From: Natronospira proteinivora
Lineage (GTDB): Bacteria; Pseudomonadota; Gammaproteobacteria; Natronospirales; Natronospiraceae
Direction of reading: 5' to 3'
NCBI RefSeq assembly: GCF_024170465.1
Contig: NZ_JALJYF010000001.1
Location: forward strand, 186,001 to 250,000
Length of the DNA stretch: 64,000 nucleotides
Of the stretch, positions 15,419 through 19,959 are shown one piece after another. The notes under the pieces were generated by a model that made no database searches, had not been told where the DNA came from, and was given only the letters and a program-made list of their open reading frames with translations. The position numbers were made by a program, and so were the translations under genes. The first letter of the stretch is position 1; each line of letters opens with the position of its first letter.

Positions 15419-15494
15419 GCCGGAATAGCTCAGCTGGTAGAGCAGCGCATTCGTAATGCGAAGGTCGGAGGTTCGACTCCTCTTTCCGGCACCA
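15419..15494 (+). tRNA. tRNA-Thr (anticodon CGT)
   Basis: A 76-nt tRNA with encoded CCA. The acceptor stem GCCGGAA pairs with TTCCGGC, the D-arm is GCTC..GAGC, the anticodon loop TTCGTAA gives anticodon CGT (reading ACG, Thr), and the T-arm is GGAGG-TTCGACT-CCTCT. All four helices form. An intrinsic terminator follows directly. Confidence 0.95.
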
Positions 15495-15550: not shown

Positions 15551-15740
15551 CCTCCGACCTTCCATTGCTTAAATGCGAAGGTCTCCGGTTGCGGGTATCG
15601 TCCCTGATACCCGCCCCTCCCGCTGGTCGGGGTCATCCGCCGCTGGCGGCTGACGCCAATGCGTTCCGGACGCATTGGTCGACTCCATCTTTCCGGCACC
15701 AGTTAGTTAAAGGGCCGTCCAATCTGGGCGGCCCTTTTTT
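15551..15740. repeat. Scrambled, partial duplicate of tRNA-Thr and its terminator
   Basis: Fragments of the tRNA recur here: an inverted copy of its GAAGGTCGGAGG (15551-15562), a direct copy of AATGCGAAGGTC (15572-15583), then about 60 bp (15681-15743) nearly identical to the tRNA 3' end, CCA, spacer and terminator. Between them are hairpins (gcgggtatc / gatacccgc; aatgcgt / acgcatt). No functional cloverleaf can be built. It may be a decayed second tRNA copy or the trace of an integrated element. Confidence 0.75.
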
Positions 15741-15803
15741 GTTTTAAAATTTATTATCATTGGGGTTTTGGGAGTTCGGAGAATAGAAAGGGGAATGTGG
15801 GAG

Positions 15804-16592
15804 ATGAATTCGGAACGTATATTGCGATTCAAGCACCGTCTGCTGCCTTTCGTGGGGCTGATTTTTCTATTGCTGGGTTTGATGATTTTGCCCTGGCTGA
15901 CCTCAGCCAAGACCTTGAACTGTGAACGGGGTACCGGCGAGTGTCGCTTCAGTGAAAGCAGTATTTTCAGTGAGCATTCCGTCGTGATTCCGTTGGCGAC
16001 TGTTCAGGAGGCCGTGGTGGACCGTCGGGCCAGCAGCTCAGACAGTGGTGGCTATGTCTATCGCACCCTGCTGGTGACGGACGAGGACCGTCATCAGTTA
16101 ACCGTGGGTTCGTCCTCACCCAGAGGCCCTCATGATCGCCTGGCGGCCCAGGTCAATCATTTTCTATCCGATACGAGCGAATCCGAATTATCGGTTCGGC
16201 GGACCATGGGATGGTGGGGCTTGTTCTTTTTGGCCTTCCCCCTGGGCGGTCTATTCTTGATGTTCGGGGTCAGGAATATTAGCGAGGCCGAATTGGATGT
16301 GGTCAACGGTCAGCTGCATTTGCGAAAGCGCCGCTGGTGGCAGTCGACAGCATTGGGGCGCACACTGGATGTGGAAGAGATTGAAGATGTTGACCTGGAA
16401 AATCGTCAGTCCAAGAATGGCCAGACCCGTCGTACGGTTTTGCGCATGCGGGATGGTGAGGTGATTCCCCTGTTCGGCATCGCCACCAATGGCAAGGGGC
16501 CTGTGCGGCGCCGGGATCAACTAATTTCCCTGTTGCAACAATCACCTCAGTTCCAGGGTCCAAAACATGGAAGCCATCATCAGGAGAGATGA
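15804..16592 (+). CDS. Membrane protein of unknown function with two tandem TM + PH-like modules
   Basis: I do not recognise a named family. The product (262 residues from the ATG at 15804; an ATG at 15795 is also possible) has hydrophobic segments at about 15-35 (LLPFVGLIFLLLGLMILPWL) and 145-165 (WGLFFLAFPLGGLFLMFGV). Each is followed by a soluble beta-rich stretch of about 90 residues that ends in a charged helix (DRLAAQVNHFL and RDQLISLLQQ) and shares the pattern of a VQEAVVDRR/IEDVDLENR strand followed by TLLVTDED/TVLRMRDG. This looks like an internal duplication of a membrane-anchored PH-like domain. It is directly followed by a lipoprotein gene with no gap. Confidence 0.7.
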   Translation: MNSERILRFKHRLLPFVGLIFLLLGLMILPWLTSAKTLNCERGTGECRFSESSIFSEHSVVIPLATVQEAVVDRRASSSDSGGYVYRTLLVTDEDRHQLTVGSSSPRGPHDRLAAQVNHFLSDTSESELSVRRTMGWWGLFFLAFPLGGLFLMFGVRNISEAELDVVNGQLHLRKRRWWQSTALGRTLDVEEIEDVDLENRQSKNGQTRRTVLRMRDGEVIPLFGIATNGKGPVRRRDQLISLLQQSPQFQGPKHGSHHQER

Positions 16593-17126
16593 ATGAAGCC
16601 TATCAAGCAGTGGTGGATCGGAGTGGTTCTGGTCGCGGCATTTTTCAGTGTGACCATTGCCGGCTGTAGCGATGAATCGGAGGAAAACCGGTCAGGCGGT
16701 GAAGCCGACGAGGATGTGTTTCTGCAGCAACCCCATTGGCAGGAATATGTCCGGCAGGCCGATGAGAGTCCCTATGATCCCGAGCGGTCCGAATGGGATC
16801 GTGTGGAAGCCCTGGAACAGAGCGAACGACTGGCGCCGGAAGCGCTCTGCACGAATCCGGATACGGCCCTTGAAGCCTGGGCCGAGTCCCGTTATCTGAT
16901 TGGTCCGGCGCAGGATGCGGATCTTGAAATCAATATGCGCACCCGTGTGCTGCGGGATGGCTCCATGGAGGGGCTGCTGCAACGCTGGGGGTTCAAGGAC
17001 GACTCGGTAGCGGGGACCGACCATCGGGTACGGTTCACCCGGGCGGATGAATGTTGGCAAATTGAAGAAGTGGTGGCTCGTCATTACTGCCGCCGGGGGG
17101 TGTCTGAAGGGTTGATTTGCCGTTGA
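16593..17126 (+). CDS. Predicted lipoprotein of unknown function
   Basis: The 177-residue product has a type II signal peptide ending in the lipobox VTIAGC, so it should be lipidated and carried to the envelope. An acidic linker (DESEENRSGGEADED) follows, then a soluble domain with paired cysteines (ALCTNPD, ECWQIEE, YCRRGVSEGLICR). I recognise no family. Its ATG abuts the stop of the preceding membrane-protein gene (TGA ATG), and its end overlaps the start of the hydrolase gene, so the three are probably translated as one coupled operon. Confidence 0.75.
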   Translation: MKPIKQWWIGVVLVAAFFSVTIAGCSDESEENRSGGEADEDVFLQQPHWQEYVRQADESPYDPERSEWDRVEALEQSERLAPEALCTNPDTALEAWAESRYLIGPAQDADLEINMRTRVLRDGSMEGLLQRWGFKDDSVAGTDHRVRFTRADECWQIEEVVARHYCRRGVSEGLICR

Positions 17127-18637
17127 TACCGGATTGGCGATGGTCAGGGCAATATTGGGGGCCTGCTGTGTTGCTGGTCTTCGGCTTGGCCTTGTTTCTC
17201 GTGTACACGGGGCACGATTCTGATTCCTGGCCATCACGGGCCAGCTCAGAGACAAGCAACCAGGCGACGGCCATTGCCTGGGAAGATTGCGATGACTTGA
17301 TGCCGGCCGGAATCCAGGCCCGGTGTGCCTGGTTCGAGCCCGGAGTGCAAGGGGAAAGGGAGCAGGCGATCCGACTGCCCCTGCTGCTGATGCGCCGGGA
17401 TTCAGTCCCTGAAACAGCCCCCCTGACGATCCATCTGCCTGGAGGCCCGGGTGCGGCGGCTGGGACGGACGAGTATTCGGCTTGGTACTGGGGCGCTTGG
17501 TTATTGGAGTTGGGGCTGGAGGATCGCCTTTTGATATTTGATCCCCGTGGTACCGGAATGGCCGAACCACGTCTCCATTGCCCAGGTAACCATCTTGCCA
17601 TCAGTGCCATGTTGGCCCAGCCACTCTCCGCCACTGCCGAAAGCCGCTTGGCCTTGAAGTCGCTCAGTCAATGCCGGGGGTATTGGCAGGACAGGGGCGT
17701 TGCACTGGATGATTTTGCGGCCCGTCATCTGCTGGACGATGTACCAGCAATTATGGACGCCATTGGAGAAGAAAAGGCTCGTCTGCTGGGGCTTTCCCAT
17801 GGTTCGAGGCTGGCCCTTCGCCTGCTTGAGGATCATCCGGATCGCTTCTCCGCGGCGGTTCTCGATGGGGTATTCCCTCCCCATATCGACCCCTTCCAGA
17901 CCCAGCCAGAGGTCCATGCTTATTCTCTGAGGAACCTGACCGGTTACTGCCGTTCACAAGAGGGGTGTTCTGATAGGCAGCTGAGGGACGCCCATGAACA
18001 GGTCAGGAACCGTCTGGCTGAACAAGCGGTATTGATCCAGGTGCCTCGCCACGATGCGCCGGATCAAGCTTTATGGTTGACTGAAGCCCGTTTTCTGGAC
18101 CTGGTTTTCGCCGCGCAGGCATTTGATGAGAGTCTGGCGACCCTACCATCCTCAATTGTGCGGGCAGCCGACAAGGACTATCGTTCCTTCGCCCGAATGC
18201 TCAGCCAGGTCATCGACCCTGCCCTTGATCCGGACCGCAATGTACCGGTCTATTGGGCTTCTCTATGCAATGAAGGCCATCTGCCGAACCCGGAAGGCAT
18301 TCATTCCGCCGCACATCGACGAGGACTGGAAGTCAGCTTTCCGGTGGCGGGTCTGCGTGCCCATCCTTGTCTCAATGATTGGGCAGGGCCCTTTACGCGG
18401 GAGAATTTTGCCCAGCCAGTGACCGCCGAGCAGCCGGTGCTACTCCTGGCGGGACAATGGGATTCGGTTACGCCCGTGTCATGGACTCGGGAACAAGCGG
18501 CGCTGCTGGACAATGCTCATGTTCTGGAAGTGAAGGGTCGTAGCCACGGGGTGGTTTTTGATGTCCGCTGTGCTGGAAAGGCGGTCAAGGACTTTCTGGA
18601 AAGTCCGAATGATTTTCGCCTCTCCCAGGATTGTTGA
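17117..18637 (+). CDS. Alpha/beta hydrolase with TAP-like C-terminal domain, membrane- or envelope-located
   Basis: This resembles the tripeptidyl/proline aminopeptidase (TAP-like) branch of alpha/beta hydrolases. The 506-residue product has an N-terminal hydrophobic anchor (about 12-30), the oxyanion motif LPGGPG, the nucleophile elbow GLSHGSRL, and in the TAP-like C-terminus the catalytic Asp (GQWDSVTP) and His (GRSHGVV). Cysteine pairs suggest an oxidising, periplasmic location. The start is a TTG at 17117 or 17123; the second overlaps the previous stop as TTGA. It is the last gene of the three-gene cluster and ends at a stem-loop. The substrate is unknown; peptides or esters are plausible. 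Confidence 0.8.
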   Translation: MPLIPDWRWSGQYWGPAVLLVFGLALFLVYTGHDSDSWPSRASSETSNQATAIAWEDCDDLMPAGIQARCAWFEPGVQGEREQAIRLPLLLMRRDSVPETAPLTIHLPGGPGAAAGTDEYSAWYWGAWLLELGLEDRLLIFDPRGTGMAEPRLHCPGNHLAISAMLAQPLSATAESRLALKSLSQCRGYWQDRGVALDDFAARHLLDDVPAIMDAIGEEKARLLGLSHGSRLALRLLEDHPDRFSAAVLDGVFPPHIDPFQTQPEVHAYSLRNLTGYCRSQEGCSDRQLRDAHEQVRNRLAEQAVLIQVPRHDAPDQALWLTEARFLDLVFAAQAFDESLATLPSSIVRAADKDYRSFARMLSQVIDPALDPDRNVPVYWASLCNEGHLPNPEGIHSAAHRRGLEVSFPVAGLRAHPCLNDWAGPFTRENFAQPVTAEQPVLLLAGQWDSVTPVSWTREQAALLDNAHVLEVKGRSHGVVFDVRCAGKAVKDFLESPNDFRLSQDC

Positions 18638-18669: not shown

Positions 18670-19959
18670 TTAACGGAGCAGGGGATCGGGGGAGGCGATC
18701 TCGACAGCCTCTCCACATTGGAAATCAACGCGGCGGGCATCGGCCAGCGTGTCCCGAATCATCTGCTCATACTCCGGAAATGCATTGCTTTCCTCCCCTT
18801 CCAGACGGTGATGCTGGGAGCGGGTGCGGGGAGATTGCTCAATCAGGGCGCAGCAGTCCTTGTAGGGCCGGATGGCGTTATCAAAGGTTCCGATACGGCG
18901 GGCGATATCGATGATCTCCTGCTTATCCAGACCCACCAGGGGGCGAAGGATAGGCAGGGTCACCGCACGGGATTTACTCACCATGTTTTCCAGGGTCTGG
19001 GAGGCCACCTGCCCCAGACTATCCCCGTTGGCTAGGGCCAGGGCGCCGGTTTCGGCGCACAGGGCTTCGGCCACCCGGGCCATGAAACGGCGGAACATGA
19101 TCACCCCGTAATCGCTGGGAGCGGCCAGCATGGCCAGGTCGAAGTGGGTGTAGGGCACCAGATAAAGCCTAGAGCGTACGGTGAAATGGCTCAGATGGCG
19201 TGCCATTTCCACCACTTTATTCTGTTCCAGGTCGTGTTGCTGCTGATGGGTGGCGGTGAAATGGATGAAATCCTGAGGGCAACCCCGCTTGGCCATCATC
19301 CAGGCCGCCACTGGGGAATCGATGCCGCCCGAGAGCATGGTCATCAGACGCCCCCCGCTGCCCACCGGCAGCCCGCCCATGGCCGGACGACGTTCACAGA
19401 AGACGTAGATTCCTTCCGGGTAGAGATTGATGTGGAAGCTGCGGTCGGCGTGATTCAGGGAAACCTTTTCCCAATCGGTCTGCTGAATGATCTGTCCGCC
19501 CAGTTCCCGTTCCAGTTCGCTGGAACGGATGGCAAAGCGCTTGTCGGCCCGGTTTACTTTCACCCGAAAGGTTTGTCCGGCCTGGTGACTCACCCCGGCC
19601 AGGTCCAGCACTTGGGCCTGAATGGCCTCCAGGTGTTCTCTTCGGGGGCCTTCGGGGGTCGCTGTCCAGATGGCGGGCTGAATACGGGCCAGACCGGCCA
19701 CCTGTTCCAGGGTCTGCAACACCTCGGCCAGTCGTGATTGGCCGTCTTCCGGCACCTCGACAAACAGCCGCTTGTGCCGCCAATGGGCGGACCAGCCCGG
19801 GCCGGCAAAGGCCAGGTGCAGATTGATGTTCTCCCGCAGCCGTTTTTTGAAATCCTTGAGATTCCGGCCTTTCAGCGCCAACTCACCATAAGTGAGCAGG
19901 ATGCGGTTAATGCGGCTGTTTTGGGGGACAACCGGGCTGTCGTCGTGTTGTTGGCTCAT
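18670..19959 (-). CDS. thiI: tRNA 4-thiouridine synthase ThiI, short form without rhodanese domain
   Basis: ThiI adenylates U8 of tRNA for sulfur transfer and, in enterics, also feeds sulfur to thiamine thiazole. The 429-residue product has a ferredoxin-like and THUMP region (LLTYGELALKGRN; KRFAIRSSELERELGG), then the PP-loop LSGGIDSPVAAWMM and the conserved FRRFM and ANGDSLGQVASQTLENM blocks. It keeps a Cys near YKDCCALI but ends about 50 residues before the length of E. coli ThiI and lacks the rhodanese domain with its persulfide Cys. I chose the ATG at 19959 (SQQHDD); 57 upstream in-frame bases code for no recognisable sequence. It is divergent from the YigZ gene, with 47 bp between. Confidence 0.9.
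   Translation of the reverse strand: MSQQHDDSPVVPQNSRINRILLTYGELALKGRNLKDFKKRLRENINLHLAFAGPGWSAHWRHKRLFVEVPEDGQSRLAEVLQTLEQVAGLARIQPAIWTATPEGPRREHLEAIQAQVLDLAGVSHQAGQTFRVKVNRADKRFAIRSSELERELGGQIIQQTDWEKVSLNHADRSFHINLYPEGIYVFCERRPAMGGLPVGSGGRLMTMLSGGIDSPVAAWMMAKRGCPQDFIHFTATHQQQHDLEQNKVVEMARHLSHFTVRSRLYLVPYTHFDLAMLAAPSDYGVIMFRRFMARVAEALCAETGALALANGDSLGQVASQTLENMVSKSRAVTLPILRPLVGLDKQEIIDIARRIGTFDNAIRPYKDCCALIEQSPRTRSQHHRLEGEESNAFPEYEQMIRDTLADARRVDFQCGEAVEIASPDPLLR

Follow-up and report, generated by a model that had tools for sequence, protein, structure and literature searches.

Three adjoining genes, here called P1, P2 and P3, lie between a tRNA-Thr gene and thiI in the window (the whole 64,000-nucleotide stretch of Natronospira proteinivora DNA analysed here). 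They encode a membrane protein, a lipoprotein and a hydrolase, and raise the question of whether these form a single envelope machine, perhaps acquired next to the tRNA, or separable proteins with activities of their own. The coordinates of the locus are collected in Table 1.

According to the ORF coordinates, P1 runs from an ATG at 15804 to a TGA at 16590-16592 and is directly adjoined by the ATG of P2 at 16593, and the TTG start of P3 at 17117 precedes the TGA stop of P2 at 17124-17126, giving a 10-nt overlap. The gapless joining of three envelope genes, which the original prediction expected to be co-translated, was thus confirmed at both junctions. In a Natronospira metagenome-assembled genome (MAG), G001, P1 and P2 share a 4-nt ATGA overlap, and P3, which starts at a GTG, overlaps P2 by 10 nt; P2 overlaps P3 in a third genome of the genus, G002, as well. 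A sigma-70 scan found no promoter ahead of P1. On the 5' side of the cluster lie a gene for a DAO-family oxidoreductase, a GspH/pilin-like gene in the reverse orientation, and ispH (LytB). The window and, by eye, a genome of the sister genus, G003, carry a DAO-type gene where G001 and G002 have a subtilase-family protease beyond the tRNA-Thr (L037:6129-7460 in G001, Pfam Peptidase_S8; L038:9080-10423 in G002, assigned by eye).

Table 1. Features of the locus, in window coordinates.
Feature	Coordinates	Strand	Basis and remarks
tRNA-Thr (CGT)	15419..15494	+	Opens the conserved slot; ARAGORN; syntenic tRNA-Thr(CGT) in L037 (G001), L038 (G002) and L039 (G003)
Partial tRNA-Thr 3' end (positions 55-76) with rho-independent terminator	15679..15743	+	blastn, 92% over 65 nt; repeat search, 93% over 56 nt
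P1, 262 aa	15804..16592	+	Strand, TM helix and PH-like domain, each present twice; EROS-like architecture
P1 strand 4-9	15813..15830	+	Predicted from the model to be the completing strand of domain B (C-terminal, cytoplasmic)
P1 PH-like domain A, residues 35-122	15906..16169	+	Model; predicted periplasmic
P1 PH-like domain B, residues 158-244	16275..16535	+	Model; predicted cytoplasmic
P2, 177 aa lipoprotein	16593..17126	+	Lipobox Cys25 and four further conserved Cys
P3, 506 aa TM-anchored TAP/Hip1-like serine hydrolase	17117..18637	+	Pfam; Hip1/CaeA PDB matches; triad
thiI, convergent slot boundary	18670..19959	-	Pfam ThiI; on the same side in L037-L039, where ORFs were read

Architecture of P1

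P1 has hydrophobic segments at residues 13-31 and 138-156. Its sequence matched no family in Pfam (none at E <= 1), NCBIfam, PADLOC or PHROG, and no match was found in plasmids. A P1 profile searched against PDB sequences returned nothing useful (best E 0.039), the stretch around the second TM helix drawing cytochrome c1 chains. The AlphaFold2 model of P1, with secondary structure assigned by DSSP, was built from an alignment of two sequences (pLDDT 74.4, pTM 0.43), and the relative placement of its domains is therefore weak. It predicts that a strand, a TM helix and a PH-like domain follow one another twice, as a clean two-fold repeat, with strand 4-9, helix 13-32, strands 35-98 and helix 107-122 in unit 1 and strand 128-133, helix 138-155, strands 158-222 and helix 232-244 in unit 2. 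When the profiles of the two units were compared, whole units scored 29.8 (shuffle maximum 18.1; reversed control 13.4) and the soluble parts 27.9 (shuffle maximum 18.9; reversed control 10.4), scores reached by 0 of 200 shuffles in either case. The PH-like duplication that had been proposed for P1 therefore stood in the shuffle test and in the structure model, which had been suggested as its check; the EROS-like architecture described below was no part of that proposal.

Because each unit has one TM helix, domains A and B would lie on opposite sides of the membrane. The positive charges at the N-terminus of P1, together with Cys40 and Cys47 of domain A, which are invariant in an alignment of three sequences, suggest that domain A is the outer one.

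EROS, in animals, and Ycf4, in photosynthetic organisms, are assembly factors. When the P1 model was compared with the PDB by Foldseek, human EROS (8kei_D) ranked first with an E-value of 1.2e-4 and was the sole match at E <= 0.001. VIA-align superposed the two with a Z of 10.3 (144 of 164 residues, rmsd 3.6, model residues 1-247), the next row scoring 8.9. P1 minus its loop domain (residues 1-32 and 138-247) has 142 residues, nearly as many as the 144 in the alignment. From this we infer that the parts of P1 matched by EROS are the strand at the N-terminus, the two TM helices and the PH-like domain at the C-terminus. In EROS, the PH domain is formed by residues 1-20 and 62-166, and a pair of membrane helices interrupts it between strands 2 and 3, according to its published description (PMC9767466). 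The P1 model likewise shows, with moderate confidence, a PH-like domain interrupted by a TM hairpin, and a PH-like domain fills the loop of that hairpin. The first PH-like domain of P1 would then be an insert in the outer loop of an EROS-type TM hairpin.

P1 might instead be an ordinary bacterial membrane protein with tandem PH domains that binds lipids or proteins, with its likeness to EROS reflecting a shared PH fold and two helices. Many unrelated PH domains do match P1 in VIA-align, at Z 6-8.9, and no sequence family ties P1 to EROS. Yet none of these passed the Foldseek threshold that EROS alone passed, and the 144 residues aligned to EROS, for which the TM helices are needed, compare with about 90 for most plain PH domains among the matches listed. 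Those plain domains align from P1 residue 1-7 to about residue 250, which is consistent with an N-terminal strand that completes the C-terminal domain. A further argument against an ordinary PH protein came from a distant single-unit bacterial relative of P1, L055, which matches the Pfam family Cybc1_Eros along its length. Together, these observations make an ordinary PH protein a possible but rather doubtful account of P1.

L055, from genome G683, is one of two single-unit relatives of P1 kept from a search of the phylum that returned 18 rows; the other is in G454, where the row reads past a stop. Leaving the own genome aside, thirteen of the 18 rows were dropped since they cover only model positions 100-161, the region of the second TM helix, and the rows in G544 and in G693 (at 163343) contain internal stops and had no clear relative among the ORFs listed. 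In three of four comparisons of the P1 units with the single-unit relatives, the score beat all 100 shuffles; that of unit 2 with the G683 protein was reached by 1 of 100. L055 matched Cybc1_Eros in two nearly equal ranges spanning nearly its whole length (E 1.1e-5 and 2.3e-5), at 24.8-25.9 bits and thus below the 27-bit cut-off. The G454 protein had no match to this family, and L055 had no sequence match to the EROS chains in the PDB. The single-unit membrane proteins (L055:1408-1905, minus strand, and L061:1366-1860, plus strand) adjoin ffh-like and FMN-reductase-like genes, named by eye.

As both P1 and L055 fall short of the cut-off of PF15169 (Cybc1_Eros), we do not file P1 as a member of the EROS/Cybc1 family. 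Judged by its model, P1 resembles an EROS-type protein and may function as one. The PF15169 profile found no match in 299 genomes, and the positive controls gave none either. A literature search, including a review searched by terms, found no other bacterial counterpart of EROS in the texts it covered. More speculatively, P1 could be the founding member of a class of assembly factors of the EROS type in bacteria, acting on both membrane faces. Its two units would be inverted relative to each other, each with a single TM helix, and would place one PH-like domain inside and one outside, each completed by the strand of the other unit; they would hold or proof-read envelope membrane proteins. We regard this extension as tentative and rather unlikely. 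An EROS architecture doubled across a bacterial membrane would offer a tractable system for studying client binding by split-PH membrane proteins, and would hint at an origin of the fold by duplication.

The hydrolase P3 and the lipoprotein P2

P3 was originally described as an anchored alpha/beta hydrolase with an intact triad and oxyanion loop, and this description held. An Abhydrolase_1 core (PF00561, E 1.1e-12, 48.6 bits against a cut-off of 25.8) is combined with a TAP-like C-terminal domain, Abhydrolase_4 (PF08386, E 1.2e-11, 45 bits against a cut-off of 21), behind a single N-terminal TM segment (residues 14-32). The motifs include GLSHGS (S227), D449, H477 and HLPGGPG; the six aligned P3-like rows show no variation at S227, D449, H477, the GGPG loop or ten cysteines. 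A profile of these six proteins found Hip1/CaeA as its best PDB matches (E 3.8e-30 to 2.6e-29, positions 46-493). Hip1 has the triad S228/D463/H490 and five predicted disulfides, and cleaves proteins and peptides (PMC4022732). From its sequence, P3 would be a periplasm-facing, anchored peptidase.

In the tree, the four P3 orthologues group in a single clade (100/100) separate from the 22 other TAP-like rows, which include two paralogues from the window's genome; the deeper placement of G003_P3, G019, G054 and G000_c is uncertain owing to their long branches. Besides P3, the own genome encodes TAP-like hydrolases at G000:C2:850104-851291 and G000:C2:408020-409141, which are 27-28% identical to P3. 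A PADLOC match of P3 to the C3a206 TAP-like protein (E 9.3e-10) was rejected as defence context, since it reflects the TAP domain alone.

Could P3 be an esterase, lipase or thioesterase rather than a peptidase? Alpha/beta hydrolases of this kind vary, and some of the matched PDB entries are titled Carboxylesterase A. Against this stand the TAP-like C-terminal domain and the long profile match to Hip1, for which protein and peptide cleavage has been described (PMC4022732), and we consider a non-peptidase activity unlikely.

P2 has a hydrophobic segment at residues 8-26 that contains Cys25, which by the lipobox rule we take to be the lipobox cysteine, and further cysteines at positions 86, 154, 166 and 176. 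All five are conserved in three genomes, by an alignment of three sequences. P2 therefore has the signal helix and lipobox cysteine of a lipoprotein, and its prediction as a lipoprotein with cysteines was upheld. It is probably disulfide-bonded and, by the residue after Cys25, to which we assume the +2 rule applies, probably resides in the outer membrane. No family was found for P2 in Pfam, NCBIfam or PHROGs, and no match in viral contigs. A PADLOC match to RT_UG6 (E 0.0095, 40 residues) was taken as chance and gives no defence context. The model of P2 was poor (pLDDT 63.1), with no Foldseek match at E <= 0.001 and a best structural Z of 5.5; NTF2-like and cystatin-like folds were considered.

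Conservation and history of the slot

Among 56 related genomes, counting the own genome (G000), two have P1, three have P2 and four have a close orthologue of P3 (E < 1e-80); weaker TAP-like matches to P3 occur in 27 of the 56. G001 carries P1-P2-P3 in the order of the window, between tRNA-Thr and thiI, so that the trio recurs in another genome, a check that the original prediction had put forward. The same slot holds P2-P3 in G002 (97% complete), whose whole genome gave no P1 match at E <= 0.001, and P3 alone in G003. Where P1 would sit in G002, between tRNA-Thr and P2 (L038:6201-7030), there are ACGACA-type tandem short repeats and repeated tRNA-proximal pieces and no gene, which suggests that the stretch has decayed or been replaced.

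A profile search of named genomes with P2 found one locus, L042, in a Natronospira MAG. Class-wide searches of 369 genomes returned five genomes for P2 (E <= 0.01), two of them strong and both of the genus, and five for P1, the two strong ones being the own genome and G377; the E-values were computed per genome and must therefore be multiplied by the 369-398 genomes examined. P2 is nearly confined to Natronospira. The P2 rows in G162 and G268, confined to N-terminal positions 3-78, and the weak P1 rows in G153, G241 and G352 were set aside as chance, as were weak rows in G029, G111, G175 and G371 from a further search. A distant one-gene relative of P2 in G239 shares the C-terminal CRRG motif and the last cysteine, and no hydrolase was present beside it among the ORFs at that locus. 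In G377, P1 lies between a symporter-family gene and a tRNA-Arg, with an integrase beyond and neither P2 nor P3 adjoining; that genome contains no full-length TAP/Hip1-like match, the P3 profile giving only a weak match of 61 positions.

The position of the trio behind a "tRNA-Thr duplicate" had been read as typical of acquired genes. ARAGORN identified only one tRNA-Thr, and the supposed duplicate is no further tRNA gene: what recurs 207 nt downstream (15688-15743, 93% over 56 nt) is the final 22 nt of the tRNA together with its terminator, the stem of the copied terminator lying at 15709-15737. By eye, the stretch from the tRNA to the partial copy (15565-15690) resembles pieces of the tRNA anticodon arm and variable region, ATGCGAAGGTC, and would be tRNA-derived remnants; G002 is similar here and G003 partly so.

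A recently acquired, tRNA-linked island would fit this partial 3' copy beside the tRNA-Thr, the lack of P1 and P2 in G003, and the GC3 of the trio (0.60-0.63), which is below that of most neighbours (0.72-0.75 in four of five; 0.66 in the fifth, a nearby GGDEF/EAL-like gene named by eye). But a copy of the tRNA end, 24 nt by blastn, is present in G002 too, and the whole cluster was missing from the slot in none of the close relatives: P3 occupies it in four genomes of two genera, as members of the one well-supported clade, and P1 and P2 are patchy. Since P3 lies between tRNA-Thr and thiI in two genera, the slot is old, and an island comprising the trio is improbable. P1 and P2, lying patchily between the tRNA and P3, may be later additions at the slot or may have been lost in G003; to them, at most, could the idea of acquired genes apply.

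A single dedicated complex, with P1 as anchor and P2 regulating the P3 peptidase, would suit the gene order and overlaps kept in G000 and G001, but is equally improbable given P2 and P3 without P1 in the nearly complete G002, P1 alone in G377, and P3 alone at the slot in G003. The occurrence of P1 without P2 and P3, and of P2 and P3 without P1, makes an obligate three-protein complex unlikely. Thus, of the envelope peptidase or esterase with membrane and lipoprotein partners that had been proposed, the envelope genes and the TAP-type hydrolase stood, and a fixed three-partner machine did not.

With moderate confidence, which applies to the explanation as a whole, we favour an envelope operon of Natronospira that has been vertically kept, with P3 as a TAP/Hip1-type peptidase, P2 as a lipoprotein and P1 as an EROS-type membrane protein stabilising or scaffolding envelope proteins. 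Natronospira is an extremely salt-tolerant gammaproteobacterium of soda lakes, whose description as protein-utilising is cited in the literature (PMC7691419). P3 would be an inner-membrane-anchored, periplasm-facing serine exopeptidase that most likely trims the peptides that this protein-consuming genus takes up, or processes envelope proteins, and P2 is perhaps its periplasmic partner. P1 is predicted to begin with a strand, followed by TM1, the inserted periplasmic PH-like domain, TM2 and a cytoplasmic PH-like domain, which the initial strand would complete. The analogy with EROS and Ycf4 makes an assembly or scaffold factor for envelope membrane proteins its most likely role. P3 would be at best one of its clients because the genes separate between genomes; G377, with P1 but no P3, and G002 and G003, with P3 but no P1, argue against a dedicated P1-P3 pair.

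Comparison with known systems

The peptidase part of the locus is ordinary; P3 belongs to the known TAP/Hip1 type. It resembles Hip1/CaeA of M. tuberculosis and TPP B/C (SlpD/SlpE) of S. lividans in sequence family, triad, five possible disulfides and envelope location, and differs from them in its N-terminal TM anchor and low identity. P1 shares a PH-like fold with the bacterial PH domains (PHb) of the PF08000 family. Those form oligomeric rings (PMC2817789), whereas the PH-like domains of P1 are built around TM helices. Ycf4, the photosystem I assembly factor, is reported to be a relative of EROS (PMC5379978); P1, which has no Pfam match, is tied to it only via EROS. EROS/Cybc1 (8kei chain D; PF15169) differs from P1 in that P1 is bacterial, lacks a sequence-family match and carries a second PH-like domain between its two TM helices, and resembles it in a PH-like domain split by a TM hairpin.
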